A DNA stretch of 40,958 nucleotides from Anaerolineae bacterium CG2_30_57_67 (GTDB lineage Bacteria > Chloroflexota > Anaerolineae > Anaerolineales > Villigracilaceae), in assembly GCA_001872455.1 (NCBI GenBank), contig MNXJ01000017.1:1-40958 (forward strand), written 5' to 3'. A program made the translations under genes and the position numbers. Below are positions 6,997-38,695 of the stretch, piece after piece. Each line of letters opens with the position of its first letter. The stretch's first letter is position 1. The notes under the pieces are model-generated. The model searched no databases. It was not told where the DNA came from and worked only from the letters and a program-made list of their open reading frames with translations.

Positions 6997-8712
6997 TTAT
7001 TGTTTCTGAATTTTTGTCATCGTCTCGCGCAGGAGGCGTAATGAGTAATGACGCGGGTCAGCCAGGGCCGCGCTGGTGAAGGCCAGCCAGAGCGCCAGCA
7101 GCCCCACCGAAGCCCAGCCTACTCTTGGTGTGACCGGCGCAAGCGGCGCAGGCGGCTCCGGCGTGACGGTGGGCAGCGGCGGCGCAAGCGTGGCCGTATT
7201 TGTTGGCGATGGCCGCTTGGTGCGCGTGGCGGTTGGCGTGCTGCTGGGAGTCGCCGTATTCGTAACCGTCCACCAGGGGAAGAAGGTCGCTGTAGCGGGA
7301 ATGTAACGAACAGCCGTGTTCGTGGGTACGAATGTCGCCGTGTTGGTCGGGGTGAGCGTGGCTGTATTGGTGGGCGTGAATGTGGCTGTATTCGTGGGCG
7401 TGAATGTGGCTGTATTGGTAGGGGTAAAAGTGGCCGTGTTCGTGGGCGTAAATGTGGCGGTATTGGTGGGCGTGAATGTGGCTGTATTGGTAGGAGTAAA
7501 AGTGGCCGTGTTCGTGGGCGTGAATGTGGCTGTATTGGTAGGGGTAAAAGTGGCCGTGTTGGTAGGGGTAAAAGTGGCTGTATTGGTAGGAGTAAAAGTG
7601 GCCGTGTTCGTGGGCGTAAATGTGGCGGTATTGGTGGGCGTGAATGTGGCTGTATTGGTAGGGGTAAAAGTGGCCGTGTTCGTGGGCGTAAATGTGGCCG
7701 TGTTCGTGGGCGTAAATGTGGCGGTATTGGTGGGCGTGAATGTGGCTGTATTGGTAGGGGTAAATGTGGGCGCTATCGTGGCTGTATTGGTGCGCGTGGG
7801 ATGCGTGGTGGGCGTGAATGTGGCTGTATTGGTAGGGGTAAATGTGGGCGCTATCGTGGCTGTATTGGTGCGCGTGGGATGCGTGGTGCGCGTGAAAGTG
7901 GCTGTATTGGTGGGCGTGAATGTGGCTGTATTCGTGGGAGCGTAAACAGAAATATTGGACACAGTATTTATTCTGACATTGCCAGCGTAATCAATGGCGC
8001 GAATCTCGATGTTGTATGTTCTAACGGACAACGCAAAAGTGGCATTGAAAGGCAACCAGGTCGAACCACCATCGAGAGAGATGTCCAGCGAGGCCAGGCT
8101 AGATTCAAAATCAACAGCACCGGCGATGACATTCAGCGGCGCGAGATAAGAACCACCACTGGAGATATGCCAGACAATCGAAGGCAGAATATTATCAATT
8201 TTGGTATCAGTCGTCACCGCCAGGCTGGTATCCCCCCAGGATGAAACCGCCCAGCGCTGCCAGGAATGTGATAGAAAAGGCGGGTAAAACGAGCAAGAGC
8301 CGGACGCGGAATTGATGGTACAGACCGTGCCGCCGCTGTCCTCGACAATCGTAATCATTTGCCCTGGAATTGGTTCGTAGACTGTGTAAACAATCGGGTT
8401 GATGCTTTTGCACCAGCCGTTATTGCCTGGATTCGAGCAGGTGTACGCTGCCGAAATTGACGCAGGCGCGTAGATAATATCGGTGTGGTACGGGATGATT
8501 CTGTACAAAGGATCGCCTTCGTAGGGCTTGATGTCCGCGTAATCGCAAGAGTGCGTGACAATTGAGCCATCCGAGACTAACTTGACGCGCCAACAGATGT
8601 GACCGCCTCCGACTACGGTGCGGTCTCCGGGACCGGTGTACGCCAGGTTGGAGGCGGCCAGCGAGAAGAGCAGGAGTAAAAGCAATAAGATGGGAATGCG
8701 TAGTTTCTTCAT
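6997..8712 (-). CDS. Large surface protein with TPTNTATF tandem repeats
   Basis: The frame encodes 571 residues. A Sec signal peptide begins [21 protein letters not shown] Cys-containing N-terminal domain and an Ig-like module ([15 protein letters not shown] then [13 protein letters not shown]) follow. Next comes a Thr/Asn/Pro stalk of about twenty TPTNTATF octapeptides with two [16 protein letters not shown] variants, then a Pro-rich stretch and a C-terminal transmembrane helix ([21 protein letters not shown]) with a basic tail. The architecture is an exposed head on an extended stalk anchored in the membrane, possibly a pilus-associated adhesin. The start at 8712 has AAGGAA upstream; the longer frame to 8907 lacks a signal at its start. 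The Ig-like part resembles the end of the 9027-10427 product. Confidence 0.75.
7316..7945. repeat. 24-bp tandem repeats coding the TPTNTATF stalk
   Basis: Units of 24 bp repeat more than twenty times. The third-base variants alternate (gtattggtgggcgtgaatgt, gtgttcgtgggcgtaaatgt and similar), giving larger repeated blocks. The array is prone to length change by slippage, and assembly length should be treated with caution. Confidence 0.9.
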
Positions 8713-8723
8713 ATAAATGTTCC

Positions 8724-9026
8724 TTACTGGCATAAGCCGCGCGAGACGCCGACGCCGTACTCCGTCAGCAGGTAGAAATTGCCCGCCGCGAGAAAGAAAA
8801 GCAGAATTCCCAGCGCGGGCTGGCCGAACTTCGTCACCACCCCCGGCAGGACAATGCCTGTTATGAGAGCGGTCAGGAAAATCACCAGCCAGACATCCGT
8901 CAGACAATCCGTGCTGGGGACGAAATAGACTGTCAGCCAGACGCTGGCGTACAGCACAATCTGGACGAAGAACAGCACCAGCGCAAGCGCGCGCAGAAAG
9001 ACATCTTTTTCGCCATCTTTCTCCAC
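8724..9026 (-). CDS. Small three-TM membrane protein
   Basis: The frame encodes 100 residues with a charged N-terminus ([10 protein letters not shown]) and three hydrophobic segments: [41 protein letters not shown] and [17 protein letters not shown]. The family is not recognised. It starts directly after the stop of the upstream surface-protein gene and precedes the repeat-stalk protein, so it is probably part of the same translation unit. Confidence 0.65.
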
Positions 9027-10427
9027 TCAGTCCACTGCTTTCAGCACCGTTACGTTCCAGACCGCCACCGGACTCATATTTCCGGCATAATCCAGCGCGC
9101 GCGCCCGAACAACGTACTCACCCTCCGACAGGTCATCGACATGAACCGCAAACTCCCAATAAAACTTGGGCGCGTGCGGCGTGTTCGGCAGGGTCGGGTG
9201 AATCTCCCATGTCTTGCCGCCGTCCAGCGAGAACTGGACTTCGCGCACCCCGGAATACGGGTCGCTGGCTACGCCGTGCAAAGACGTGTTTTCCGTCAGC
9301 CGAGAGAGGTTGTCCGCGTCGAAGGTGATCTCCGGCGGAGTCGCGTCAATGAAAACTCGCTGCAACAGGCTTCCGCCGGTATCCAGTGACCAGACGATTT
9401 GATGTTCGCCGTCTCCGATGATTGCCTGCATAGCCGTGTTGCTGGGCTTGGCGGGGATAGTTTCCAAATCATCTCCATCATCCAGACGCGAGAACATCCG
9501 CGCCTGTCCATTGACCGTTATGTAGGCCAGCACAACTTCCGAGCGATACCAGCCGTCATCGTTGCCGTTGAAATCGCCGTCCAGCGGTTTCCCGATAATC
9601 AGGTTTTCCGGCTCCGGCACAACGTCCAGCGTCCAGAGCAGCGCGTCATTGCGATGCGGCGAAACGCTGGTAGAACCAATCAGCAGATTGCTGGGCGTAA
9701 TTTGCTGGCCGCTATCGAGCAATACGGATTCGCTGGTATCAACCAGGTTCCCCAATCGCCGCAGGGAGTCGTCATCGCATTTACGCCAATCAACGCCGGT
9801 TTCCGAGACGTGCGCGCCCGCGAGGCTCACGCCAACCAGGTCGCCAATCGCGGGCGTAATCCGGGCAACCTGCACCCCGTCCAGGTCGAGCAGCACCCAG
9901 GCGGCGAAGTGCCGCGACTGGACTTTGGCGGCGTGGCCTTTCAAGCCCAGCGGATTGACTTCCTGCACATCCATCACCCGGCCAGTGAACGACCAGCGGC
10001 GCAGATGCGCGTTGTAGCGCAGCGGCAAGACGGACATGTCAGCAATTTTCAACGCCTGAAATTCAGGGTCTTCGCAGTGTTCGCCTTTGCAGACCTGCCA
10101 CTGAATCGAATGCCAACCAGGGGTGGTCAGCAGGACTTGATTGCCCTCGACGGCGGGTGCGCCGTCGAGGGCGGAGGTAATAACCGCGTTAGGGTCTGGC
10201 GTCTCTGCGACGGCTGTTACTGCACCGGTAAAAAAGCCGTCCTGTGTGAGACGCGCGTCCGTCCGGTAAGAAATCAGCAGGGGAATGTTCTTCTCCGATC
10301 GGTGACTAGACACCGCCGAGCGGACGATGGCAGTAGAAGCGTGCGGCGCAACCCATAGGGTCGCCAACACGACGAGAACGGAAAGAAGCGCCAGGATGAT
10401 GCCCTCGGATACGCGATTATTTGACAT
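9027..10427 (-). CDS. Membrane-anchored surface protein with a C-terminal Ig-like domain
   Basis: The frame encodes 466 residues. An N-terminal signal-anchor ([17 protein letters not shown]) is followed by an extracytoplasmic region. The C-terminal module around residues 370-460 has [26 protein letters not shown] and [17 protein letters not shown]. These are typical of bacterial Ig-like or fibronectin-like repeats and are shared with the Ig-like part of the 6997-8712 product. The middle contains [10 protein letters not shown], a possible calcium-binding loop. Probably an adhesin or pilus-associated surface factor; the function is unproven. Confidence 0.65.
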
Positions 10428-10439
10428 GGGGAGAGACTC

Positions 10440-10904
10440 CTATTGAGCAGCAGGAGCCCCAGCAGGAGCCGCAGCGGGAACAGCGGGCGCGACAAAGTTG
10501 CGGATGGTGATCGCGCCCTTGCCGGTCACAGGGTCAGGATTGACGCGAATGACATAAAAGCCAGGTACAAGCGTTCCCAGATTGATAGTGCGTGAGAAGA
10601 CCGTCCCAGCCGCGCCCATCCCGCAATCGCGGTTGGTCACCTTGACGTTGTAAAATTTGATGATGATGTTTTTGCCAGCAACCACCGCGCTATACTCCAC
10701 TTTGTCGCAAGTGCCAACGCCGGTGATGCGGAAGGTGGCCGGTTGATTGTCCAGCACCTTGATTTTTGTGACACTGGCGTAGCCCATGATTTTGTGCTTT
10801 GGGCCGCTGTATTTTGCCAGCGCCACGCCGCCAGGGGCCAGCGCGCCGAAGGCCAGGGCGACCAGAGCGAACAGAGAAACGAACCAATTCAGACGAGATT
10901 TCAT
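10440..10904 (-). CDS. Small secreted protein, Ala/Pro-rich tail
   Basis: The frame encodes 154 residues with a Sec signal (WFVSLFALVALAFGALAPGGVALA). The mature part is a predicted beta sandwich with two Cys residues (GTCDKVEY and NRDCGMG) that could form a disulfide. The tail is APAVPAAAPAGAPAAQ. No family is recognised. It lies between the ICMT-like gene and the large surface protein, and is likely an extracellular component linked to the pilus. Confidence 0.65.
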   Translation of the reverse strand: MKSRLNWFVSLFALVALAFGALAPGGVALAKYSGPKHKIMGYASVTKIKVLDNQPATFRITGVGTCDKVEYSAVVAGKNIIIKFYNVKVTNRDCGMGAAGTVFSRTINLGTLVPGFYVIRVNPDPVTGKGAITIRNFVAPAVPAAAPAGAPAAQ

Positions 10905-10934
10905 AACGAACTCCTTTGAGAACGTCTGGCTGAA

Positions 10935-11498
10935 CTACCAGACGAATGGAATAAGACGCCAGCGCACCAGGCGCTTGTAAGCGTCGTAACCAGCAATGAT
11001 TTTTTCTTCGCGCAGAATGCGAAGGACTTGCAGCAGGATAAGAATTGCCAGCGGGACAAGGCCCTGCGCCGGATTGGCAATCGTCAGCACACCGCGCAGC
11101 AGCAATTCGCCCAGGTACATCGGGTGGCGCACAAGCCGGTACACGCCAATCGCCACCAGGCCCCGATCCGCGGGAGCAATCCCAAAGCGCGGGCCAAGCG
11201 TGCCGAGTGAAACCAGCACCAGGGTGTAGCCTGCCATTCCCACCCACAAGAGCGCGCCGCTGGGTGTAATCGGCATTAACGGAATCGGCAGGAAGGCCGC
11301 GCACAGCCCTAGCCACAGCCCAACCCGGTCGGATACCTTCTCCGGTTCGCGTTCTAGGTAGACCCCGACCAGCATCAGGTTATGGATGACAGCCATCCAG
11401 TTCAGCGGCGAGGGGTATTCCAGCGCGACATAGATGGAGAGCGCGGCCAGTACCAGGAAGAAAACAGCGGTCAGGACATCGGCCATGTAGCGTTTCAT
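10935..11498 (-). CDS. ICMT/PEMT-like membrane methyltransferase
   Basis: The frame encodes 187 residues with several membrane helices. The C-terminal signature of the isoprenylcysteine carboxyl-methyltransferase / phospholipid methyltransferase family is clear: GVYRLVRHPMYLGELL, then LREEKIIAGYDAYKRLV and RWRLIPFVW. These enzymes bind S-adenosylmethionine between the RHPxY motif and the C-terminal E..Y..Y motif. The substrate is unknown. Because it overlaps tadC by 4 nt, methylation of a pilin, a lipid or a secreted partner is possible, but this is inference from context. Confidence 0.75.
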   Translation of the reverse strand: MKRYMADVLTAVFFLVLAALSIYVALEYPSPLNWMAVIHNLMLVGVYLEREPEKVSDRVGLWLGLCAAFLPIPLMPITPSGALLWVGMAGYTLVLVSLGTLGPRFGIAPADRGLVAIGVYRLVRHPMYLGELLLRGVLTIANPAQGLVPLAILILLQVLRILREEKIIAGYDAYKRLVRWRLIPFVW

Positions 11499-12361
11499 TT
11501 CACGCCTCCAAACAGGCCGATGACAACCGGGTAGCCCACGATGGTCAGGATGGTGACCATGAACGGCACAAAGTAGAAGAGAACCATCGGCACAATCATC
11601 TCGGAGCCAAGTTTTTCGGCGCGTTGTTCCGCTGCACCAATGTACCCAGCCGCGATGCCCATCGCCATCTGACTCATCAGTTCCTGCCGCGCCGAGCCGT
11701 TGCGGATGAAGGAAAGTTGAACGCTCATGCCAATCAGTTCCGGCAAAAGCGAGGCCTGCGCCTCACGCTGCATCTGTTCAATCAGGTTGCGGCCTTGCGA
11801 CTGGCGAATTACCATCCGCATCCACTCCCCCACCAGCCCCGGCGTCTTGGCCGTGCGAGTGAAGGCTTCTTCCATAGAAATACCGGCGGACATCTGCGCC
11901 GAAACCAATTGAATAAATTCTGGCAGTTGTGAGACAAACTTGCGGCGCGTGCGGCGCGCCACGCCCCCGGCAGACATGCCAGGGTACGACCAGCCGAAGT
12001 AGCCCGCCATGAGCGCCATCGGCAGCGCGGAAGTCAGAATCATGCCGCCCACGATACCGCCCACAGCGGCGGCGACTTGCAGGGCGATGAATTGCACCGC
12101 GTTCCAGCCGACCCACTTGCCAGCCATTTGCGCCCAATACAAATCCGCTTCCACCTTGCGAATCATTGGCGGCGGCGCGTATTTTTGCACCGGCACACCC
12201 AGCGGGGTCAGCGCCGATTGCAGGCGCGAACCCGCTTGCGGCGCGGCTTGATGAGCGTCCACCAGCGCCCCAGACGGGACACGATTCCAGATAAATTCCA
12301 CCGTCAGGTACACGATGAAGAGCGTTGTCAAAATGCCAACCAGATAAATTAGTCCGGTCAT
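11495..12361 (-). CDS. tadC: TadC-like pilus platform protein (T2SSF domain)
   Basis: The frame encodes 288 residues. The N-terminal TM helix is LIYLVGILTTLFIVYLTVEF. A cytoplasmic stretch and a T2SSF-type helical domain follow (LPEFIQLVSAQMSAGISMEEAFTRTA), with membrane helices at the C-terminus. With TadB it forms the inner-membrane platform through which TadA drives pilin assembly. ATG 12361 was chosen because AAAGGAGG lies just upstream; it also overlaps the stop of the 33-residue gene before it. A longer frame to 12499 runs through other genes. Confidence 0.85.
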   Translation of the reverse strand: MTGLIYLVGILTTLFIVYLTVEFIWNRVPSGALVDAHQAAPQAGSRLQSALTPLGVPVQKYAPPPMIRKVEADLYWAQMAGKWVGWNAVQFIALQVAAAVGGIVGGMILTSALPMALMAGYFGWSYPGMSAGGVARRTRRKFVSQLPEFIQLVSAQMSAGISMEEAFTRTAKTPGLVGEWMRMVIRQSQGRNLIEQMQREAQASLLPELIGMSVQLSFIRNGSARQELMSQMAMGIAAGYIGAAEQRAEKLGSEMIVPMVLFYFVPFMVTILTIVGYPVVIGLFGGVK

Positions 12362-12459
12362 TTTTTGCCTCCTTTGCGGCGTTCCATGACAGCGACATAG
12401 CCCGCCAGCAACAGCAGCAGACCAATCAACGACAAGATGCCCGATTCGATGGGACTCAT
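12358..12459 (-). CDS. Tiny single-TM protein between tadB and tadC
   Basis: The frame encodes 33 residues: MSPIESGILSLIGLLLLLAG then a short tail ending RRKGGKK. It is one membrane helix with a positive C-terminus. It has a GGAGG ribosome site, and both junctions are ATGA overlaps (with tadB and tadC), strong evidence that it is translated. A role in stabilising the TadB/TadC platform is plausible. Confidence 0.65.
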   Translation of the reverse strand: MSPIESGILSLIGLLLLLAGYVAVMERRKGGKK

Positions 12460-13340
12460 ACCGCCTCCATTGCCATTGAGCGCAGAATAAAGTAACCAAT
12501 CACCATCGCCAGCGCCACCAGCCCCAGCACAATCTGAACCGGCGCGGCGCGCATCGAGAGCGAAATCAGCGGGTCATTCGAGAGATAGACCAGCAGGCCG
12601 CCCAGGACGGCGGGCATCATGAAAACCGAAACCATCACGTCACCGGCTTTGGCTTGCGCCCGGTTGCGCGCGCCCAGAATTTGTTGGACACGCTGCGAGA
12701 TGTCCATCAGCGTTTCGGCGTACTTGCTGCCGCCCGCGTCGAGATACCCATCCAGCAGCGTTGCCAGGTTGGAGAGCGAGGTCGAAGGCGACCGTTCGGC
12801 CAGCGCGTACAAGGCGGCGTGGCGATCTTTGAAGCGCAAATCAGAAGCCGTCAGAAACAACTCGGACGAGAGCGGATTTTTGCCCTCCAAATCGAGCGAG
12901 GCGGCCACCTGCTCCAGCACGTCCGCAATGGCCCCGCCCGCCAGCAGGCCAGCGGCGATACGCCCCACCGCAATCGGCAGGACTTTTTCGATTTCATTGC
13001 CGCGCCCTTTGGCCTTGTCGTCCAGCCAGGCTTGCGGCGCGAACCAGGCGATACCGCCCAAGACCAGACCGACAAAGCCGCCCAGGAAGGACGCGCCCAG
13101 CGCGAAGGCGGCCAGCGCCGCGCCAGTGGTGAACAACCGGAATGTGACCGGCTTGAGCGCCACCCCCGCCGCCAGCAGTTTGTAGTCCAGCGATTTTGGG
13201 TCGAGCGTTTGCAGGCTGCTGGCCGAATCGGCGTAGCCGTAGGCCGAAGACAGCGCGCCCGGCTTGCGCTCTCGCGGCCAGAACTGCCACAGCACCAGCA
13301 GCACGGACAAGATTGCGATTAGAAAGATGATTCCATTCAT
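12456..13340 (-). CDS. tadB: TadB-like pilus platform protein (T2SSF domain)
   Basis: The frame encodes 294 residues. The N-terminal TM helix (GIIFLIAILSVLLVLWQF) is followed by a second membrane region (LAAFALGASFLGGFVGLVLGG). The T2SSF cytoplasmic domain follows (VLPIAVGRIAAGLLAGGAI, LDISQRVQQILGARNRAQAK), then two C-terminal helices. It is the expected partner of TadC. The start has TGGAG 8 nt before it. The stop overlaps the start of the tiny TM gene by 4 nt. Confidence 0.85.
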   Translation of the reverse strand: MNGIIFLIAILSVLLVLWQFWPRERKPGALSSAYGYADSASSLQTLDPKSLDYKLLAAGVALKPVTFRLFTTGAALAAFALGASFLGGFVGLVLGGIAWFAPQAWLDDKAKGRGNEIEKVLPIAVGRIAAGLLAGGAIADVLEQVAASLDLEGKNPLSSELFLTASDLRFKDRHAALYALAERSPSTSLSNLATLLDGYLDAGGSKYAETLMDISQRVQQILGARNRAQAKAGDVMVSVFMMPAVLGGLLVYLSNDPLISLSMRAAPVQIVLGLVALAMVIGYFILRSMAMEAV

Positions 13341-13344
13341 GTTT

Positions 13345-13455
13345 TTATCTCCAGTGTTCCAATAAAAATCTCATGCCAGACAGCGGGCCGAAGGTCAGCG
13401 CGGCTAACACGCCGCCAAGAAAGCCAATGAAAAGGCCATACCAGAATTTATTCAT
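13345..13455 (-). CDS. Tiny single-TM protein between tadA and tadB
   Basis: The frame encodes 36 residues: MNKFWYGLFIGFLGGVLAAL, then a short tail FGPLSGMRFLLEHWR. It has a glycine-rich (GxxxGG) membrane helix. It overlaps the end of tadA by 8 nt, and GGAG lies close upstream. The family is not recognised; the second of three such mini-proteins inside the pilus operon. Confidence 0.55.
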   Translation of the reverse strand: MNKFWYGLFIGFLGGVLAALTFGPLSGMRFLLEHWR

Positions 13456-14773
13456 GCTCCGGCTCCGTGGCAGAATTGATGTCGCCCAATTTCGTCCAGC
13501 GCGGCGCGTCCACCGGCGAGGATTCGTCATATTTCCAGATGGGCAGAAACACTACCTTGCCGTCTTTCAGGTCTTTGCCAACCGCCGAGAAGGAAATCAC
13601 CCGCCGCTTGTCGTGGCGGATGCCGATTTGCAGGTGCAGGTCAATCGCGCTGGCAAAGGTGCGCGAGATTTCCGCCGGGCGCGCCTGGCTGTGCATTCCC
13701 ATTTCGGTGATGACGCGCTCCACCGTGTCACGCGGACTTTCAGCGTGGAAGGTGCTTGCGCCAGAGTGGCCGGTCGTCATGGCCGAGAACAGGGCTTCCA
13801 GCGCGTCACCGCTGCGGGCCTCGCCCACAATCAGGAAGTCCGGCGAGAGACGCATGGCGACTTTCACACCATCCGCCAGCGTGACCGCCGCGACTTCCGT
13901 GCCGATGGCTTTGGGGCGCGCCTCGAAGGATTGCACGGTAGTGCGGTCAATCCAGATTTCTTCCGGGTCTTCGATTTTCACGATGCGCCAGCCTTCCGGT
14001 AGGAAGTTGCACAGCGCCGAGAGCATGGTGGTTTTTCCGGTGCGCGTGCCGCCGCACACCAGCAGTCGCTTGCCAGACTGCATCGCCGCGCGCAGGTCGT
14101 CCATCATCTCCGCAGGAAGCGCGCCGCGCTCAATCAGCCATTCCGGCAGGACAGGCTTTTGCTCGAACAGACGCAGGTTAATGGCGGGCATCCGGCCAGG
14201 CGGAACAATCGCCGGGTGCAAAACGGTCAAGCGCCCACCGCCTGGGTTGTCGGGCGATGGCGGCAGCTTGGCGTACACCACCGGATTGACCTCGTTCAGC
14301 GTCTTGTTTTGCGGCCCCAGCAGGCGATCCAGTACGCGCCAGACCTCACCCGCTTCCGGGTGCAGGTCAATCGTCTCGAAGCGTACCGAGCCTTTCCGCA
14401 TGATCTGAATCAGCCCGCTGGAGTACACCGCGATTTCCGAGACATCCGTGCGGGCAGGCGGCAGGAGCAGGTCGAGAAAGCCCAGCCCCAGCAAACGGCG
14501 GGTAATCTCGCTGCCCAGGGCGTTTTCGTACATTGGCCCAGGGCGCAGGTTGCGGCGGCGGAAGGCGGCGGCGACTTGCGTGGCGACCCGCTCTCCGATG
14601 GCCGCGCGCTGTTCGGCAGACGGATTCGCCAGCAGCGCAGGCGGGTACGTCTGATTCACATCGTCAATCACCTCGTTGGTGACAGCGGCGCGCACTTCGT
14701 CCATGTTCGCGTCGGGCGCGACAGCCGCACCGGAAGACACGCTGGGAGTGGAATAGAAAGAAGCCAGGCTCAT
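13448..14773 (-). CDS. tadA: TadA/CpaF pilus assembly ATPase
   Basis: The frame encodes 441 residues. The N-terminal helical and link domains (about 1-200) include FLDLLLPPARTDVSEIAVYSS. The secretion-ATPase core has Walker A GGTRTGKTT near residue 240, the Asp box VKIEDPEEIWI, Walker B LIVGEARSGDALE near residue 314, and the His box GHSGASTFHAES. TadA is the hexameric cytoplasmic motor of Tad pili, powering extension and probably retraction. It is translationally coupled to the 43-residue TM gene upstream by an ATGA overlap. Confidence 0.92.
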   Translation of the reverse strand: MSLASFYSTPSVSSGAAVAPDANMDEVRAAVTNEVIDDVNQTYPPALLANPSAEQRAAIGERVATQVAAAFRRRNLRPGPMYENALGSEITRRLLGLGFLDLLLPPARTDVSEIAVYSSGLIQIMRKGSVRFETIDLHPEAGEVWRVLDRLLGPQNKTLNEVNPVVYAKLPPSPDNPGGGRLTVLHPAIVPPGRMPAINLRLFEQKPVLPEWLIERGALPAEMMDDLRAAMQSGKRLLVCGGTRTGKTTMLSALCNFLPEGWRIVKIEDPEEIWIDRTTVQSFEARPKAIGTEVAAVTLADGVKVAMRLSPDFLIVGEARSGDALEALFSAMTTGHSGASTFHAESPRDTVERVITEMGMHSQARPAEISRTFASAIDLHLQIGIRHDKRRVISFSAVGKDLKDGKVVFLPIWKYDESSPVDAPRWTKLGDINSATEPEHE

Positions 14774-14901
14774 GACAACTCCTTTGTGATGATGTCCATT
14801 AATTCGCGTTCTTCTTCATCGCGGCTTATCATCCCAGACAGCGCGAATGGCGAAAAAAACACGAGTGCGGCGAACAGGGAGATACAGATAAAAAGACACA
14901 T
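14770..14901 (-). CDS. Tiny single-TM protein between tadZ and tadA
   Basis: The frame encodes 43 residues: MCLFICISLFAALVFFSPFA, then an acidic cytoplasmic tail (SRDEEERELMDIITKELS). It starts 2 nt after the tadZ stop, and its own stop overlaps the tadA ATG. No good ribosome site is visible, so it probably depends on re-initiation. Its acidic tail could contact the ATPase. Confidence 0.55.
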   Translation of the reverse strand: MCLFICISLFAALVFFSPFALSGMISRDEEERELMDIITKELS

Positions 14902-14903
14902 GG

Positions 14904-16232
14904 TTAGCCGAGCCTGAACTTGGGAAATAGCCGGGAGCGCGGCTCTGGCCGCACCTGGGCAGCCGCCTCGTTATTGCCCAAACGCGGGAACAGGCCGCCG
15001 ATGATTTGGCGCACGCCTTTTGCCAGGGATTCCGAGCGCGAGACAGCCGGGGCACGTTGGTCTTGCGCCGCCTGAACCGCCGGGTCGCTGTCAATCACGG
15101 CCAGGATGGGCGGGGTCCAGCCCGCCGCTTCGGACAGTTCGGACAGGAATTGTCGCGGGGTGAAGGCGTTACCAGCGCCTGCCTGATTCAGCACCAGGTA
15201 GGTGGACTCGCGCGGCAGGATGCCGCCCAGGTTGCTCAGCCAGTTCAGCGTGTGATGCGTGGCGAACAAGTCCGCCATCGTTGGGCGCGCCACGATGATT
15301 CCGGTATTGGCGAAACTCAGCGCGTGCAAGTCCCACTCCGTCTCTGTCGTGGGTAAGTCCATCAGCAGCGCAGCGTATTGGCCGTCATCGGCGGCCAGCA
15401 ACATCGAAGCAATGCTGTTCGGCGCTTGCAGGTCAGCCGAGTTGGCCGCGCCTTTCAGGTATTCCAGGCTGTTTTCCGGGGCCAGCAGCACGTCCAAGCC
15501 CTCGACGCGCTGGATGGCGGACTGGATGGCCGGTTTGCCGGGCCGCTCAAAGAACTCGGTCAGGCTGGGGTTGTAGCGCAGGCTGGAGAAGTGCGGCACA
15601 GCCGCAGGCGGCAGCCCCAGCGAGAGCAACAGCGTCCGCACCGACAGGCGCACCGCCAATTCGTAGCCAAGCGCCTCGGCCAGCGTCGAAGTCCCTGCCC
15701 CGCCACAGTGCGACAGGAACGCAATCCGCTTTGTGCCAGTCACCAGCCCCGCGCCAGCAAACGCGGACGCGCCCAGGCCAGACATGCCCGCGCTACTGAC
15801 AGCCGCCGCGACTTGCGGTTGCGCGGTGATTTGCTGCGTGCGGCTTCGCACGGTCTGGCCAGCGCGGAAGGCTTCATCTGGGAGCGTGGCAAAATTAATC
15901 GGCTCAACATAGACCCCGGCCACGACTCCCGTCATGGCGGCAAACGCGCCCTGAAGTCTGGCGTCTACCTCGCTCAATAGCACAATCGCCGCGCCGTTCC
16001 AGGTCTTCATGTCTGCCAGCAGTTTGAGCAGGTCATCCGGCCCCGGCGCAATACGCGAGTGGACAACCAGCACGTCCGGGCGCGTTTGCTCCAGCGAGTC
16101 GCGCAGGGTCGCCCAGGTCGTAGGCAGGCTGGAAATAATCATGTCCGCGCGCGGCAAAAACGGCGGCTGGAGATTGTAGAAAACCAGGTCGTGGCCGTCA
16201 CCGGCGAGCATGATGGAATATTTCTCGGCCAT
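14904..16232 (-). CDS. tadZ: TadZ/CpaE-like ParA-superfamily ATPase
   Basis: The frame encodes 442 residues. The N-terminal part (about 1-130) looks like a degenerate response-regulator receiver (PDVLVVHSRIAPGPDDLLKLL, AAIVLLSEVD). A ParA/MinD-like domain follows with a deviant P-loop CGGAGTSTLAEALGYELA near residue 177. Residues VDVLL/ALLMDLPTT mark the later strands. The usual XKGGXGKT lysines are replaced (GGAGTS), as in many TadZ proteins. TadZ places the Tad machinery in the cell. It shares one nucleotide with the cpaB stop (TAATG). Confidence 0.85.
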   Translation of the reverse strand: MAEKYSIMLAGDGHDLVFYNLQPPFLPRADMIISSLPTTWATLRDSLEQTRPDVLVVHSRIAPGPDDLLKLLADMKTWNGAAIVLLSEVDARLQGAFAAMTGVVAGVYVEPINFATLPDEAFRAGQTVRSRTQQITAQPQVAAAVSSAGMSGLGASAFAGAGLVTGTKRIAFLSHCGGAGTSTLAEALGYELAVRLSVRTLLLSLGLPPAAVPHFSSLRYNPSLTEFFERPGKPAIQSAIQRVEGLDVLLAPENSLEYLKGAANSADLQAPNSIASMLLAADDGQYAALLMDLPTTETEWDLHALSFANTGIIVARPTMADLFATHHTLNWLSNLGGILPRESTYLVLNQAGAGNAFTPRQFLSELSEAAGWTPPILAVIDSDPAVQAAQDQRAPAVSRSESLAKGVRQIIGGLFPRLGNNEAAAQVRPEPRSRLFPKFRLG

Positions 16233-17128
16233 TATTGCCCCTGCGGTTTGTTGATGGTTGTGTACAGGTCGCCCAGGTTGAGCGTCAGCACCTGGTCAAT
16301 CGCCAGACCGTCCGCCGGTTCGAGCGCCAGGTGAATCTTGCCGTACTCGTCCAGCGCGGCAATCAGAGTCGCCGGATTGACAAACAGCCCCGGCGCAAGT
16401 TCCACCGGCTGCGTGGGAATGTCCAGCACAATCACGGAATTGCTGTTCGTGCTTTGGGCGCTGGCAAACATCTGTTCGTTGCTGGAGGAACTTGGCGGAA
16501 GTTCCTGGTAGCGGAAGGTCTGCGGCACGAGCAGCACGCGCAAGCCAGTCACGGCGATACGCGCCACCGGAGCCTGCACCGGTTCAGGGGTTGGCGTCCC
16601 AGACGCGGGCGCAGCCGGGGTAGCTGCGTACAAGTCCGCTGCGCCGGAGGGCGCAGAAATACCGGCGGCGCTGCTGGCAGCGGCAAACACGTTCTTGACC
16701 AAATCCGGCGACAACATGCCAATAACCGTAACCGTCTGCCCTTCGCGCAGCAGACCAGCCACGCCCGAGGACAGATTGACCTTGATGGCTACTGCCACAT
16801 GGCCGGGCGCAAGTTGGGACGGAATGCCGGAGGCGGCGGTTTCGCCCAGCACGGAGGTCGTGATAAAGTCGCCTTTGGCGCGGCCCACCGTCAGCATCTT
16901 GCCGGGCAAGGCGTCGAGGCTGGTAACGGCATCCTTCGGGACGCCGCCCGCCGGAATACTCACGGTTTCCACCAGGTCAGCCGTGAGCAGCGTGCCAGGC
17001 GCAAGGGCGCTTTTGGCAACCAGTACCGGCATCGGGCGAATCGTGCCAGCCAGCAGCGCAATCACCGCCACACCAATCACCAACGCGAAAACAATCACAA
17101 TCAGGGGCGAACGTTTTTTACTTTCCAT
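16232..17128 (-). CDS. cpaB: CpaB/RcpC-like pilus assembly protein
   Basis: The frame encodes 298 residues. An N-terminal TM anchor (LIVIVFALVIGVAVIALLAG) is followed by an SAF domain (VLVAKSALAPGTLLTADLVETVSIPAGGVP), then an RcpC-type domain (HVAVAIKVNLSSGVAGLLREGQTVTVIG). In diderms CpaB works with the secretin CpaC; no secretin gene is visible here. ATG 17128 has AAAGGAGA upstream; the longer frame to 17233 is not supported. It is first of the conserved tad genes in the operon. Confidence 0.88.
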   Translation of the reverse strand: MESKKRSPLIVIVFALVIGVAVIALLAGTIRPMPVLVAKSALAPGTLLTADLVETVSIPAGGVPKDAVTSLDALPGKMLTVGRAKGDFITTSVLGETAASGIPSQLAPGHVAVAIKVNLSSGVAGLLREGQTVTVIGMLSPDLVKNVFAAASSAAGISAPSGAADLYAATPAAPASGTPTPEPVQAPVARIAVTGLRVLLVPQTFRYQELPPSSSSNEQMFASAQSTNSNSVIVLDIPTQPVELAPGLFVNPATLIAALDEYGKIHLALEPADGLAIDQVLTLNLGDLYTTINKPQGQ

Positions 17129-17150
17129 TTTCTGAATCTCCTTTTTGAAT

Positions 17151-17459
17151 TTAGTAACAGCGAATGCTGGAACTTGAAATCGTGCGTAGTCTGAGGCCAG
17201 GGCGTAAGCGGACGTAAGCCTCCACCAGCGCAATCAGCACCGACAGCGAGTGACCGTACATAGAGAGCGTCACGCTCAACTCGTAGTACAGTTCTGCCAG
17301 GAACAGCGCGGTCATATTCTCGGCTTCATCTGCTGGCATGTCTTCCGTAAAGTCTGGGTCGTCAAGAATGTCCGTGTTCGCCAACGCCAGGCGAACACTT
17401 TTTTGGGGCAAGGTGAGCAGCCGCGCCAATTGCGAGATATAAAAATTGCGCCTGGTCAT
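17151..17459 (-). CDS. Hypothetical protein, paralogue of the upstream gene
   Basis: The frame encodes 102 residues, starting MTRRNFYISQLARLLTLPQK. Its first 25 residues resemble the next gene upstream (YI..[IL]AR[VL]L..P...V...L), followed by an acidic stretch and an amphipathic helical half. The family is not recognised. It overlaps the upstream gene by 4 nt and precedes cpaB. Confidence 0.55.
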   Translation of the reverse strand: MTRRNFYISQLARLLTLPQKSVRLALANTDILDDPDFTEDMPADEAENMTALFLAELYYELSVTLSMYGHSLSVLIALVEAYVRLRPGLRLRTISSSSIRCY

Positions 17460-17728
17460 GCTGGACTCGTCTCTATCATCCCGGCGGCTTTGAGATTGTG
17501 CTCAATCCGGCTCAGTCTGACGCCGTTGCGGGACAGCACCGCGCTCAGGGCGCGCCGCAGGTCGGGGATGGAAGCCGCTTCGATTGCGCGGCGGCTGTCT
17601 TCGTCGCACTCCTCGTAGATGGACGAGGGGTAGAAGAAGAGCGTAAACCTCAATTCCTGCTCGACTTCATACGGCGGCGCGCCCAACACGCGCGCAATGG
17701 CATTGATGTAGACATCTTTGACTTTCAT
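17456..17728 (-). CDS. Hypothetical protein, first of a paralogous pair
   Basis: The frame encodes 90 residues, starting MKVKDVYINAIARVLGAPPY. AAAGGAGAG lies upstream. It is a small helical protein (RRALSAVLSRNGVRLSRIEHNLKAAG) with an acidic middle (EECDEDSRR). It lies between the giant ATPase gene and its paralogue. No function can be read from the sequence. Confidence 0.55.
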   Translation of the reverse strand: MKVKDVYINAIARVLGAPPYEVEQELRFTLFFYPSSIYEECDEDSRRAIEAASIPDLRRALSAVLSRNGVRLSRIEHNLKAAGMIETSPA

Positions 17729-17745
17729 GCTTTCTCTCTCCTTTG

Positions 17746-20700
17746 TTACTGCAACGAAATCACGATTTCGGCGTCTGCTGGTTCGTCCACGGCCAGAAGC
17801 AGCGGCTGAATCAGAGCTGGCTCCAGGTCGAGTACGTCCATGCTGTAGCCGAGTTTGGCAATCGCCATCGTGCGCGGAATGCGCGCCAGATAACGCTTGT
17901 ATTCGGTGTTCACAATGCCCTTTTCCGAGCGCGCCAGGTGCGGCAAGATTGTGTCGCGGTCCTTGCCGTCCTTTGTCTGGAAGACAAACATGTTGGCGCA
18001 CGAGGCCAGGATGCCCGGCGGCAGTTCGGCTGCGGTCTGGCCCATCAGGTGCAGGTAGATGAAATACTTGCGCCCATCCCGCCACATCGTCTGGAAAATC
18101 TCAGCCACAGACCCGCCGCTCTTTTTCTCCGAATCCGAAGCGGCGCCGCCGCCTACGCCCGAAAGGACTTTGTTGGCTTCCTCGAAGAAAATCTGCATCG
18201 GTGGGAATTTCTCCCCGGCCAGACTTTCGCGGCGGCGCACAATCGCGTCCAGGTACAGGATGACGGCCATCAGCGAGAGCAAGGCAGACTTGGCGAATTC
18301 GTCCATTTCCGCGCCGCCCTCCACCACCGTGACGCCCCACTGGTCATCTTCGGGGCCGAGCAGCCCCAGGTCTTCCACCGCCAGCGAGTCGTCTCCCGGC
18401 CCGTATTGCGCCAGCATCTGACTATCGCCAAACTGCTCCAGACGCAGCAGCACGCCTTCCAGGCTGGTGCGGCTGGCCTGATCTTTGCTGGCCGCAACTT
18501 CCTCGTAGTAGGCGCGCAGCAAATCCAGCCAATCGCTCACGCTAACGCGCTTGCTGCGAAGAGTCGCCAGCATTTGTTGTTTCTCGCTGCTCAAGGCGAG
18601 AACATCCGTGCCAGCGGGAATTCCGAGCGCGGTGGCTTCTTCATCGTCCAGCGTGAGCAATTCGCTCATGCGGCTTTCCAGCGCGGCGCGCTCGTCTACC
18701 AGCCGTTCAGCGGACGCGGCAAAGTTCTTCTTTGGCTTTCTCTCGTCGTCCTGACTGTCCAGCGTGGCCTGCGCTGATTTGGCAAGTTTGGTGAATTGAG
18801 CATTGAGCGCCTCAATTTTCTTGCTGTAATAGGGCTGGATGTTGAGAATCAGCACGCCCTCACGGCTGTACAGTTCAGTCAGGGCGCGCCGCATGAATCC
18901 GAGTTGGCGCGCGCCCATCTGCCCGGCGTTGGCAAAGAGTTCCGAAATTAGCGAGACGTACCGCCCTGGGTCAATCCGCCGTGGAATCTTGAGAAAGTTC
19001 CAGCGCATCGGGCGTTTTGCGCCGGGAAACAGTTGGCGAATGTCCACCCGCCCCTTAAGACCCGGCCAGTTGAGCGCCTTGCGCCAGCCCTGGCCGAAGT
19101 CCAGCACGATGGTGCGGAAGTGCCAGGCTGCCGTTGTCCCGTAGGCCAGCCGTTCAGCCGCCACCGTCTTGCCAAAGCCAGAATCCCCCAGAAAGGCCGT
19201 GTGAAAGTGCCTGTCACGAGAGAGGCGCAGCATCACGTTGGTCAGTTCGCCGTTCTCCACCGACCACTGATTCCCCAGGACGACATCCCCAGGCATGTCA
19301 GGGAAGAAGGCGAATTTTGGCGTTTCTTCCTGCGTGGTTTGCGCCATGCCCTGCTCGAACACGCCCGGCGATGTGTAGGCCGCCAGTTGCAGCATGGTCA
19401 GCAGCGTAGAATCCATGTAGCCGGAAAGCGCGCCGGGGATCGTTTCCACCCGCGTGGAAGGCGTCCAGGCTTGCGCGTGCGCCCGAATGTATTGATTCTC
19501 GTCATCGTTTAGCGTGCGGCACTGCACGCCCGTCACCACTTCCTCCGTCCCCTGAAAAGATTCCGGCAGCAGCCCCATCATGGCCTGCAAGCCGCGCTCG
19601 GTGGAGGTCAGCGCGTATAAATCGGTGTAGTACGCGCCTTCGATGCTGGCCGTCCTCAGCAGTTTTTCCTGCGTCCGCATGATTTCGGTAATCAGAATAG
19701 CCGGATCGTTCTGCCACTGCGCCGAATTGCCCATCGAGAAGGATGGCGCCACCCCCACCGCCAGCCCGCTGCTGGTCGTGTGACCCAGACCGTCCGACCA
19801 GGATTGACTGGACGCATTGGTATGTCCCTGGCTGCTGGTGTCCCCCACCGACGATGACGTGCCGTGCGAGACAGAATCAGAAACCGAATCGCTGGACGAC
19901 CACGACTCACCAAACGACTCGCCAGCCGAAACGCCCTGCGACTGGCTGGCCGTAACGCCGTGCGATACGCCCTCAGCGTGCGCGCTGCCGGAAGTGCTGC
20001 CCGACATCGTGCTGTCCGAGTTACCCTGACTCCAGCCCGCCATAGAAGAGTCAACCGTACCCCAACTGTGACTGCCGTTGAGACTTGCCACTACCGCGCT
20101 TAAGCCACCGCTAAATCCCCAAGTGTCCGACGCTGAATGCGATGTCGCGCCGCTCGTGCCGCTAGAGTCAGTATGGGAAGAAGACGACGAACTTGAGTGC
20201 GAATCGGTGTCAGTCACCGAAGTGCCGTCCGATGTGCCCGTCCCGGTGCTGCTGGACGTGCCGCTATTGATGGTATGCGAACCGCCCACCGAGGTCGCGT
20301 GACCGGTACTGTGAGCGTAGCCGTCCGAAATGCCGGAGCCAACCGAGTGCGCCGCGCCAGTTGAGTCCGCCACGCCTGTGCCAGTGCCATAACTGCGCGA
20401 GGCCGAGTCGGCAAGTGCGCCGGAGAGCATGGCAGGCAGGCTCACGCCAAAACTGGCCGAGCGGATGCCCTGCTGCTGGCTGGCCCAGACGCTGGTTTCT
20501 TGTGCATACCCAATCAACAAATCCGAAATCGTGTCAATCGGTACATGATAGGCCAGCGCCATCAGCAGGAAGTCTTCCCGCAGGGATGCCATGCCGCGAT
20601 ATAGGATTTCATTCTGCTGGAGCGAGTACCCCTGCGCCGCCTGGTCGCCGGTCGTGAGCGGGTTTTGCGTTCCATGCGGGCTGCGCGAGTTCTCGCGCGG

Positions 20701-36986: not shown

Positions 36987-37218
36987 GCTCGCCTTTCTCA
37001 CGCACCACGACGACCAGTTCGCCGTAGCCGAGCAGCTTGCCCGCTTCGTCCATGACGCGCAGGTTCAGCGCGGGGTGCGTCCAAAACGACCCGACAAGTG
37101 CAAATTTTTCAGCGCTGTTCGGGTCGTTCAGCGATAATGAAACCACGCGCACAATGCGGCCATTGAGCGTTTCCGCAATGGCAAATTCCGCTTGGGTAGG
37201 TGGGATGAGCGTCGTCAT
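36973..37218 (-). CDS. Small hypothetical protein
   Basis: The frame encodes 81 residues, starting MTTLIPPTQAEFAIAETLNG. It is beta-rich (IVRVVSLSLND, ALNLRVMDEAGKLLGYGELVVVV), possibly an OB- or barrel-like fold. It overlaps the upstream gene by an ATGA. The family is not recognised. Confidence 0.55.
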   Translation of the reverse strand: MTTLIPPTQAEFAIAETLNGRIVRVVSLSLNDPNSAEKFALVGSFWTHPALNLRVMDEAGKLLGYGELVVVVREKGEHGQH

Positions 37219-37493
37219 TTACGCCCCAGTGCGGCGCGGACGCGCTCAACCTGCGAGAATGCAATTTCGTAGCCGTATTTTCGCAAGGCATCCACCAATC
37301 GGATGTAGTCGGACGCAATCCGCCGCTGGTCGTTGGTCATTTGTTCCAGGCGGATGCCGCGCATTTGCTGGGCGGTGACGTTGAACTCGTCAATCAGGAC
37401 TGACTTTTGTTCTGCCGGGGTCATGGCCACCCAGCAGTCTGCGGCGGTCTGCCGCTGGCGGGTGCGCGGCGACCCGCTTTTGGGATCAAACAT
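37215..37493 (-). CDS. Small hypothetical protein, first gene of the operon
   Basis: The frame encodes 92 residues, starting MFDPKSGSPRTRQRQTAADC. A basic N-terminus is followed by a helical body (SVLIDEFNVTAQQMRGIRLEQM, YIRLVDALRKYGYEI). The ribosome site GAGGAGG lies 8 nt before the ATG. The longer frame to 37694 is unsupported. It heads the co-oriented cluster downstream of the tRNA-like RNA. The family is not recognised. Confidence 0.6.
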   Translation of the reverse strand: MFDPKSGSPRTRQRQTAADCWVAMTPAEQKSVLIDEFNVTAQQMRGIRLEQMTNDQRRIASDYIRLVDALRKYGYEIAFSQVERVRAALGRK

Positions 37494-37555
37494 GAGAACC
37501 TCCTCTTGGGGTAAAATGGAGGCGGCTTCCGCAAAAAGAGCCACCTTAGTTTGGA

Positions 37556-37584
37556 AATCCCGCTTGCATCGGGCAGGCGGGATT
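37556..37584. promoter_or_regulatory. Hairpin upstream of the operon
   Basis: An 8-bp stem (aatcccgc/gcgggatt) is followed by T5 on the plus strand, so it would terminate plus-strand RNA. On the minus strand only a short T-run follows. Confidence 0.4.
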
Positions 37585-37601
37585 TTTGCGTATGGTAGGG
37601 T

Positions 37602-37652
37602 ACAGGCAGGGGCAGGTGATACCAGTAAAATTTTTGGCCTGCCCCTGCCTGT
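37602..37652. repeat. 15-bp-arm inverted repeat
   Basis: The arms acaggcaggggcagg (37602-37616) and its exact complement (37638-37652) flank a 21-nt AT-rich loop. It lies in the non-coding stretch before the operon. It could be an oriT, a regulator site or an RNA leader structure; nothing decides between these. Confidence 0.6.
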
Positions 37653-37720
37653 CAGCCGTCCGCGCCGTAGTGGGGGTGGGGAATGCCCGTACACGAGCGG
37701 GAAAGCCGGAAAATTGCAAC

Positions 37721-37771
37721 AAAAAACACGCCCGCTGGCTGACAGTGTTTGTCAGCGGTCAGAAAGGCGTG
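37721..37771 (-). terminator. Intrinsic terminator after the tRNA-like RNA
   Basis: On the minus strand, CACGCC pairs with GGCGTG (arms at 37766-37771 and 37727-37732), with an inner 7-bp hairpin (GCTGACA/TGTCAGC, 37738-37756). Six T residues and then GTTGC follow. It would end a transcript of about 160 nt started at 37880. Confidence 0.7.
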
Positions 37772-37783
37772 CTGTTCGGTTGA

Positions 37784-37847
37784 TGGGGACGGGCAGGAGT
37801 CAAACCTGCATTTGCATTCGCGCGTTTACTGGCGCGCCCCGTGTCCC
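37784..37847 (-). ncRNA. tRNA-like small RNA lacking a D-arm
   Basis: The 64-nt sequence has a 5-bp acceptor-like pairing (GGGAC/GTCCC), an anticodon-like arm (CGCGC CAGTAAA CGCGCG) and a strong T-arm (GCAGG TTTGACT CCTGC). There is no D-arm, and the CCA is degenerate (ATCA after the pairing). The loop would read GTA (Tyr), but position 33 is A instead of U. It sits between a sigma70 promoter and a terminator. It may be a decayed tRNA, an attachment site or a regulatory RNA. Confidence 0.5.
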
Positions 37848-37886
37848 TTTTTCACCGTTGCGATGTTGCTACTGGGGTGTAGGGAT

Positions 37887-37915
37887 AGTTTAGCAGAAGT
37901 AATCCATGTTGTCAA
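37887..37915 (-). promoter_or_regulatory. Strong sigma70 promoter
   Basis: TTGACA (37915-37910), a 17-nt spacer and TAAACT (37892-37887) on the minus strand. The start point would be near 37880, just before the tRNA-like RNA. Confidence 0.8.
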
Positions 37916-37930
37916 TACTTGGATTACTTC
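37896..37930. promoter_or_regulatory. Operator overlapping the promoter
   Basis: A perfect inverted repeat, gaagtaatcc (37896-37905) and ggattacttc (37921-37930), is separated by 15 nt and covers the -35 box and most of the spacer. It adjoins the HTH regulator gene, its likely ligand. Confidence 0.7.
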
Positions 37931-37995
37931 TTTATAAAAAAAAGACGACTCTCAAATCGCGAGCCGCCTAAAATTTGCAGTGATAAGAAGTAACT

Positions 37996-38454
37996 TTAGG
38001 TATGCGCCCTGTAAGGAAGTCCGTTTTCGCTAAATACTCTGCGCCCCTGTCCTCCTATCTTGCGATAAATCAAAGCGCAGTATGCTACATCGGACTCGTC
38101 AAGCAAGATTTTTTCTCCGCCTTGCACCGCCGCTCTTTCTACTTCGCCAATCAGGCCTTTTTTATACCATCGGAATATAGTAGAAAAGCCAATGCTATAT
38201 TTTTTAGATGCCTCTTTTATACCAATACCAACTCCCTTCAAATGGGAGTGCATCTTATACTCCGGCAAATCTTCCTTGCGGAGCGGGGCGGCTTCATCGC
38301 GGACATCATCTTCGCTGACAACCAGATTTTTGTTTACCATAGCGGCTTTGATTCTACCATTCTCAATAAGGCTTTGAATCCGCTCAACAGCCAGCCCGTA
38401 CTTTCGGGCGGCTTCGGGAATGGGAAGTAAGGTGGGAAAAGCGGCAAAAGTCAT
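37996..38454 (-). CDS. Two-HTH excisionase/MerR-type regulator
   Basis: The frame encodes 152 residues. The first helix-turn-helix (LLPIPEAARKYGLAVERIQ, then SLIENGRIKAAMVNKNLVVS) and the second (IGIKEASKKYSIGFSTIFRW, then YKKGLIGEV) both follow the excisionase/MerR pattern EAA+KYG....I..LI..G+I. The C-terminus carries YRKIGGQGRRVF. The position next to a palindromic operator-promoter suggests a repressor or an excisionase-like switch for the element. ATG 38454 is the first good start; its ribosome site is poor. Confidence 0.7.
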   Translation of the reverse strand: MTFAAFPTLLPIPEAARKYGLAVERIQSLIENGRIKAAMVNKNLVVSEDDVRDEAAPLRKEDLPEYKMHSHLKGVGIGIKEASKKYSIGFSTIFRWYKKGLIGEVERAAVQGGEKILLDESDVAYCALIYRKIGGQGRRVFSENGLPYRAHT

Positions 38455-38468
38455 AAGTAGGATTCTTT

Positions 38469-38527
38469 TCTCGGCCAAGCGTAATCGCCCTGATACAGAG
38501 CCTCAGGGCGATTACGCTTGGCCGAGA
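38469..38527. repeat. 25-bp perfect inverted repeat
   Basis: The arms at 38469-38493 and 38503-38527 are perfect complements with a 9-nt loop. It lies between tRNA-Asp and the HTH gene and is not followed by a T-run on either strand. It could be a tRNA-downstream terminator, a recombination site or an operator. Confidence 0.75.
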
Positions 38528-38566
38528 GGCCATAAACTACGGTGAATTACTGTGCCTACACCTCTG

Positions 38567-38639
38567 CGATCCCGACGGGATTCGGACCCGCGATCTCGGC
38601 CTTGACAGGGCCGCATGTTAGCCGCTACACCACGGGATC
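38567..38639 (-). tRNA. tRNA-Asp (GTC)
   Basis: The 73-nt cloverleaf has acceptor GATCCCG/CGGGATC, the D-arm with GTGTAGCGGCTAACAT, anticodon arm CGGCC CTGTCAA GGCCG (anticodon GTC), T-arm GCGGG TCCGAAT CCCGT and discriminator G. CCA is not encoded. tRNA 3' ends are common integration sites, and the co-oriented mobile block begins just beyond this one, but no duplicated 3' end was seen in the window. Confidence 0.93.
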
Positions 38640-38666: not shown

Positions 38667-38695
38667 AGTTTATCATGGGGAGAGTGGAACGTCAA
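38667..38695 (-). promoter_or_regulatory. sigma70 promoter of tRNA-Asp
   Basis: TTGACG (38695-38690), a 17-nt spacer and TAAACT (38672-38667) on the minus strand, 27 nt before the tRNA. Confidence 0.8.

Follow-up and report, generated by a model that had tools for sequence, protein, structure and literature searches.

A degenerate tRNA-like structure and its relatives in the predicted leader RNAs of tRNA-associated integrative elements of Anaerolineae

In a family of putative integrative elements of Anaerolineae, one gene order recurs with variations: a tRNA gene, a two-HTH regulator gene, a palindrome over the −35 box of a promoter, an untranslated leader carrying a tRNA-like structure, a terminator-type hairpin, and then further genes. 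One example lies in the window, by which we mean the whole 40,958-nt stretch of DNA analyzed here (Table 1). The window alone would be of modest interest because its tRNA-like copy is degenerate; the recurrence of the layout with other crippled tRNAs in elements of the same class hints at a function. As a tentative general reading, which may well prove wrong, we suggest that a widespread family of tRNA-integrating elements of Anaerolineae repeatedly captured tRNAs and discarded the portions needed for decoding. The remaining acceptor/T-arm half would have become fixed in the leader, itself untranslated, of an early operon under repressor control (one branch would carry it inside a long leader RNA not described before), and there it would give host tRNA-processing enzymes a handle to cut, protect, or time the leader. 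No description of a tRNA-like leader in such integrative elements was recognized in the literature searched, mostly at less than full-text depth.

Table 1. Coordinates of the features discussed, as positions in the window
Feature	Position	Strand	Method or remark
Promoter-like TTGACG-17-TAAACT of tRNA-Asp	38667..38695	-	Promoter scan
Host tRNA-Asp(GTC) gene, presumed integration site (attL)	38566..38639	-	ARAGORN; Rfam tRNA, 61.1 bits
Perfect 25-nt inverted repeat between tRNA and regulator	38469..38527	-	Inverted-repeat search
Two-HTH regulator, 152 aa from ATG (listed from TTG at 38478)	37996..38454	-	Pfam, PHROG, and family searches
Palindromic operator-like site	37895..37931		Inverted-repeat search; architecture conserved in family
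Promoter TTGACA-17-TAAACT	37887..37915	-	Promoter scan; −35 box 37915-37910, −10 box 37892-37887
Degenerate tRNA-like: acceptor GGGAC[AC]GG/CCGTCCC, hairpin, T-arm	37785..37847	-	Motif shuffles and folding
Anticodon-arm-like hairpin, 5 bp, 8-nt loop	37820..37837	-	Fold
T-arm GCAGG-TTTGACT-CCTGC, 5 bp, loop TTTGACT	37793..37809	-	Relaxed T-arm motif
Terminator- or attenuator-type hairpin with U6	37721..37773	-	Fold; 94% conserved in contig C25
First ORF after the leader	37215..37493	-	ATG 37493 preceded by GAGGAGG; longer ORF 37215-37694 listed

The window probably carries an integrative element at tRNA-Asp; we call it integrative and make no claim that it is conjugative. The element encodes a replication initiator (PHROG match, 3e-13), a DnaB helicase, ParA, and two proteins with Pfam matches under the cutoff, one weakly similar to SSB and the other a large ATPase of HerA type, the latter with a homologue in the Bellilinea element. 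No integrase was found among the 15 window proteins given to Pfam. A 21-nt piece of the 3′ end of the tRNA-Asp gene occurs only once in the assembly, allowing up to two mismatches, and the contig ends before any attR. The regulator matches Pfam HTH_17 above the cutoff (1.1e-6), DUF3853 just under it (6.3e-4), and a PHROG excisionase/regulator family (9.3e-4). The promoter-like site of tRNA-Asp may also feed the regulator, and the inverted repeat between the two genes is a possible attenuator or terminator. Elsewhere on the minus strand, the window carries a gene whose 838-aa product has an FGE-sulfatase domain and, below the Pfam cutoff, a NACHT-like match (218 to 2734), possibly a cargo or defense gene; an ORF with a long low-complexity TPTNTATF repeat (6997 to 8907); and a type II/IV secretion ATPase (13448 to 14773; Pfam T2SSE), around which lie genes that we take to resemble a Flp/Tad pilus set. 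A third regulator copy in the window's genome (L033, on contig 21 of G000) lies next to a tRNA-Asn gene, with 121 of 155 residues matched and one stop.

The regulator has relatives in 21 of the 101 genomes close to the window's (its own genome included), in 19 of 152 genomes of the family, in 51 of 400 genomes of the order at an E value of 1e-10, and in 71 of 396 genomes of the class at 1e-3, many of these last being weak partial matches. In named genomes they occupy 58 loci, nearly all of them labeled Anaerolineae or other Chloroflexi; the exceptions are single contigs labeled Caldisericales, Bacteroidales, and Micrarchaeota, which are possibly misbinned. A pattern-based scan of viral contigs confirmed no regulator relative. 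To compare surroundings, 149 loci were reduced to 101 by dropping 48 exact duplicates, near copies being kept, and the 94 with at least 450 nt upstream were used for the tRNA count (the other 7 were shorter). At 58 of these 94 loci, a tRNA gene on the same strand ends less than 450 nt upstream of the regulator, compared with 0 of 94 on the antisense strand and 0 of 58 in a stretch 1000 to 1450 nt downstream; the 60 loci in all that have an upstream tRNA represent 21 anticodon types. Fifteen loci among L063 to L079 have no upstream tRNA, most of them with a similar promoter directly after the regulator gene, and look like a separate subfamily.

Two relatives have exact att repeats with an integrase gene beside one of them. 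In G048 (Bellilinea caldifistulae), the end of a tRNA-Lys gene is exactly repeated over 45 nt at a distance of 64.6 kb, and a gene for a 293-aa tyrosine integrase adjoins the distant repeat. In G012, a 65-nt tRNA-Leu repeat is present in three copies, one of them beside a gene for a 319-aa integrase. Both integrases match Pfam Phage_integrase (6.9e-27 and 5.4e-33), and in both genomes the repeats correspond to the 3′ part of the upstream tRNA gene. Collectively, these sequence comparisons indicate that the regulator marks a family of integrative elements in Anaerolineae.

The preliminary description of the window had placed a consensus promoter inside a palindrome with 10-bp arms. In line with this, TTGACA-17-TAAACT was the top scorer among three promoter-like sites between 36500 and 39000 (shuffle mean, 1.3), and the inverted repeat around it has arms of 15 nt (37895 to 37909 and 37917 to 37931), complementary at 14 of 15 positions (93%). 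That the promoter is operator controlled, as was also claimed, holds as a statement on architecture, which the family appears to share. A recognizable promoter was present at 64 of the 101 loci, near copies included, and the palindrome was scored on both sides of its −35 box: it reached at least 10 of 13 positions in 42 promoters and at least 11 of 13 in 30, while pairing halves from different loci gave 7.1% and 1.5%, respectively. In this first count, the promoter had been picked partly by its own palindrome; with promoters picked by their hexamers alone, the numbers were again 42 and 30 of 64 (null, 5.8% and 1.4%). Across the family, the palindrome is retained though its letters diverge, the pattern expected of a repressor and an operator that diverge together, and we infer that the regulator binds it.

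A terminator downstream of the tRNA-like was also borne out, as a hairpin of −20.7 kcal/mol (37773 to 37721) followed by UUUUUU. It goes unlisted by a simple terminator scan because the rule used there wants a plain stem with a loop of 3 to 8 nt. The proposal that promoter, fold, and terminator make up a self-contained RNA gene of about 160 nt describes one possible arrangement; the RNA could just as well serve the minus-strand genes downstream as their leader, because the promoter scan lists no other promoter-like site on that strand between 37885 and 36500. Rfam matches in the window leader at E values up to 10 were all far under the gathering scores, and the 401-nt stretch from 37600 to 38000 had no match in the phage collection. 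Past the terminator, the leader contains a perfect 15-nt inverted repeat (37602 to 37652); a similar hairpin was seen by eye in L039.

Between promoter and hairpin, the preliminary description had recognized a tRNA-like fold without a D-arm. The shape is present: the window tRNA-like is 63 nt long, with a T-arm, an anticodon-arm-like hairpin, and an acceptor of 7 pairs with a 2-nt bulge. The relaxed T-arm motif has its sole minus-strand match in the whole window at this T-arm (the plus strand has two) and arises in 1 of 20,000 dinucleotide shuffles of the 158-nt RNA; a T-arm together with an acceptor as good (7 pairs and a 2-nt bulge) arose in 0 of 20,000. The fold as named has a free energy of −23.5 kcal/mol, against a minimum of −23.6 kcal/mol. 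Taken alone, the 63-nt tRNA-like is of ordinary stability (z score, −0.93; 33 of 200 shuffles equally stable), and the entire 158-nt RNA is more stable than its shuffles (z score, −2.31; 2 of 200).

On the other side of the account, the window fold has an 8-nt loop where a 7-nt anticodon loop is expected, a bulged acceptor, and no D-arm; it also fails the strict tRNA-like rule given below. It was not called as a tRNA by ARAGORN or by the Rfam tRNA model (RF00005), either at the gathering score or at E values up to 10, and ARAGORN with lowered thresholds was discarded as a test, since it called tRNAs everywhere. The mini-tRNA model R1, derived from the relatives, matched the T-arm only (9.6 bits; E value, 3.1), with no match to acceptor plus T-arm. 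The window copy thus reaches no significant score with a tRNA model. A second copy of the region in the same genome, on contig C25, retains the promoter region (78%) and the terminator (94%), but the tRNA-like is missing; no second copy of the tRNA-like itself was found in the genome at an E value of 0.001. The window copy is a degenerate tRNA-like, and the tRNA-like reading is right for the family, in which relatives carry clear tRNA-likes after the same promoter; for the window copy, it is only suggestive.

To pass the strict rule, a tRNA-like had to have a 5-bp T-stem, a TT[CT]RANY loop, and an acceptor with at least 6 of 7 Watson-Crick pairs, and to lie no more than 700 nt after the regulator. 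The rule was given 56 of the 58 loci in named genomes (the weak partial matches L095 and L096 were omitted), of which 8 had fewer than 300 readable nt downstream, leaving 48. Strict tRNA-likes followed the regulator at 12 of these 48 loci, compared with 0 of 48 on the antisense strand, 5 of 2,400 shuffles, and 0 of 35 control stretches; 36 loci had none. Nine of the 12 belong to one homologous type, and the remaining 3 differ from that type and from each other. In the larger set, where downstream lengths ranged from 0 to 700 nt, 15 of 101 loci passed. Ten of these carry a 48-nt mini-tRNA made of acceptor and T-arm only. A second type, in L010 and L011, is a Ser-like form with a large variable arm (L010 z score, −3.68; 0 of 200 shuffles); a third, in L017 (the same locus as L061), combines a D-arm with an enlarged C/U-rich anticodon loop and scores 48.2 bits with the Rfam tRNA model; and a fourth, in L018, is D-armless, with L155 as a separate further case. 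Outside the strict rule, L060 was called both by Rfam tRNA (37.4 bits) and by standard ARAGORN and L143 by ARAGORN only. The Rfam tRNA model at E values up to 3 gave no call for the tRNA-likes of L010, L018, L143, L155, L009, L029, or the window. A candidate in L006 reads as a coding gene and was taken as a chance match.

The distance from the −10 box fell into two ranges among 21 loci. Nine have the tRNA-like close, 17 to 39 nt after the box (the window, L010, L011, L016, L017, L039, L060, L133, and L143); L016 is cut by its contig end, and the forms in L039 and L133 are degenerate and were recognized by eye. In the other 12 (L018, L155, and ten mini-tRNAs), it starts 171 to 296 nt after the box, behind a terminator-type hairpin in the loci read, and because of these 12 loci the place of the tRNA-like in the regulatory logic is not fixed.

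The mini-tRNA was aligned from 8 of its 11 places, L054, L090, and L103 being repeats of included sequences. All 112 of 112 cells in the 8 sequences are paired, and the linker holds an invariant GG. Three of the five T-stem pairs have changed on both sides (15 of 500 shuffles were as high), and the covariation score was equalled by 1 of 500 shuffles; further pair types were no better than shuffles (486 of 500 as high), and the acceptor is uninformative on covariation because it is invariant. In the 400 genomes of the order, model R1 found 12 places of at least 69 bits, 8 of them training sequences and 4 further copies, and all 12 lie 0.3 to 1.3 kb downstream of a regulator copy, which in one case is a 39-residue fragment. 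Bellilinea caldifistulae GOMI-1, a cultured relative, has three copies that include the mini-tRNA. At an E value of 0.1, the model had matches in 170 of the 400 genomes, mostly short or low scoring. Two mid-score matches, on contig 188 of G738 near 1265 (36.4 bits) and on contig 23 of G048 near 232079 (33.8 bits), have no listed regulator upstream. The model was applied to 18 sources, the window included, where a match of 18.9 bits at 14195 to 14246 falls inside the secretion-ATPase gene and was taken as chance (other strand, 10.5 bits).

Around the mini-tRNA extends a long leader that is conserved in sequence and contains hairpins, including a terminator-type one. No Rfam model matched it at the gathering score in 13 loci, nor at E values up to 1 in one locus. 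RNAalifold predicted 71 pairs, of which 6 show changes on both sides, 2 of these in the mini-tRNA; the covariation term was unfavorable (+1.25), and the structure beyond the mini-tRNA is therefore without covariation support. Runs of N interrupt the leader sequence of L041 and L043. In L042, L047, and L049, a complete tRNA(CAU) gene lies about 0.8 to 0.9 kb after the regulator, near the end of the long leader and before further element genes.

A comparable geometry is found in ICEKp1, in which the promoter of tRNA-Asn drives the first gene, the integrase, in the integrated state and stem-loops lower the readthrough, according to the parts of the source consulted (PMC13023037). As in the family described here, ICEKp1-type elements are reported there to integrate at a tRNA 3′ end, with the first gene just downstream on the same strand and stem-loops between. 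The first gene of ICEKp1 is the integrase, however, whereas here it is the two-HTH regulator and the integrase lies at the other end in two relatives; the consulted parts of the same source mention no tRNA-like leader in ICEKp1 or related elements (PMC13023037). By analogy, the similar geometry, together with the 25-nt inverted repeat, suggests expression of the regulator from the integrated form of the element. The explanation we prefer, and consider quite possible though short of probable, is that a repressor tied to the integrated state controls the early operon of the element and that half of a captured tRNA, no longer able to decode, sits in the leader of this operon as a module for processing or structure. 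In the integrated state, transcription from the tRNA promoter would read through a hairpin into the regulator gene, and the regulator would bind the palindrome and keep the promoter off. Once the promoter fires, a leader RNA would be made from near 37880, its acceptor/T-arm tRNA-like would fold, and the RNA would then meet an attenuator-type terminator ahead of the genes at 37493. The tRNA-like would stem from a captured tRNA in which the decoding parts are gone and the half recognized by processing enzymes survives, and most likely it would serve the leader as a processing or stability module. The acceptor/T-arm half of tRNA is recognized by RNase P, RNase Z, and the CCA-adding enzyme, and acceptor plus T-arm form the minimal substrate of RNase P and RNase Z. 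The C25 copy without a tRNA-like and the 36 of 48 loci without a strict one imply that the module is dispensable, replaceable, or decaying. In the window, the module is degenerate and may be losing its function, perhaps surviving as a remnant.

A strong competing explanation is decay, as a close paralogue lacks the module. Elements would pick up host tRNA genes whose copies decay without function, and the window would hold a late remnant. The lack of a score with any tRNA model in the window, the loss of the tRNA-like from C25 while promoter and terminator stay, and the less decayed forms in relatives (L061 and L060 with the Rfam model; L060 and L143 with standard ARAGORN) all fit decay, which we regard as a serious possibility, if a somewhat doubtful one. 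It accounts less well for the mini-tRNA, which retains perfect pairing with compensatory changes, for the retention of acceptor and T-arm in several dissimilar forms in which the D- and anticodon parts were lost or enlarged, and for the close placement after the promoter in 9 loci.

We think it unlikely that the window encodes an independent small RNA of about 160 nt, ending at the terminator, with a function in trans, in which it would either occupy a tRNA-binding enzyme as a tRNA mimic or act as antisense RNA built on a tRNA scaffold. The promoter, the fold, and the terminator-type hairpin would form a complete unit for such an RNA, and in L017 and L018 the enlarged anticodon loops are C/U rich and could pair with ribosome-binding sites; however, the terminator could instead work as an attenuator, the loop in the window is not C/U rich, and the mini-tRNA is without such a loop as well. 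The suggestion that the tRNA-like is the attachment site of the element did not survive and is highly improbable: family elements do sit at tRNA genes, but the tRNA-like is not the attachment site because in two relatives the att repeats derive from the upstream tRNA, and it has no second copy in its genome at an E value of 0.001. Just as improbable is a functional D-armless tRNA taking part in translation, for which the overall shape speaks, but against which stand the 8-nt loop, the bulged acceptor, a change of T-loop C56 to U, and the lack of a tRNA-model score.

Among known RNAs, the large RNAs GOLLD and ROOL belong to phages and prophages and often lie close to tRNAs, which in GOLLD can also occur within the linker, as far as described in the parts of the source consulted (PMC12286853). 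They resemble the leaders here as long mobile-element RNAs with tRNAs nearby or, in GOLLD, inside the linker (PMC12286853, consulted in part). The long leader of the relatives differs from both in having no Rfam match in the 13 loci compared at the gathering score and in its setting: it belongs to Anaerolineae integrative elements that also have a palindromic operator-like site and the mini-tRNA. The tRNA-like domain of tmRNA consists of acceptor and T-arm with a stemless D-region; the mini-tRNA likewise has acceptor and T-arm, with the invariant GG in its linker. ARAGORN reported a tmRNA neither in the window nor in any locus to which its tmRNA option was applied. The mascRNA/MEN beta RNA (RF01684), which is eukaryotic, is likewise a truncated tRNA-like, and the L052 mini-tRNA matches its model weakly (22.2 bits; E value, 0.13), under the gathering score of 42.5; the same model gives a real tRNA 23.5 bits. 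If the general reading is true, these leaders would provide a collection of natural minimal tRNA mimics that evolved separately in bacteria, some of them in cultured hosts such as Bellilinea caldifistulae, and would connect three subjects that tend to be studied separately: the integration of elements at tRNA genes, the divergence of repressor and operator among related elements, and the still enigmatic large leader RNAs of mobile elements.

Three further observations concern the elements themselves. The gene downstream in L030 and L063 looks ParM/actin-like. In L194, the sequence beyond attR resembles the left end of another family element, which suggests a tandem insertion. In L167, the region from about 9000 to 19900 contains many ORFs with repeated RVWGT and HPHVCGEH peptides, possibly a CRISPR array read as protein.
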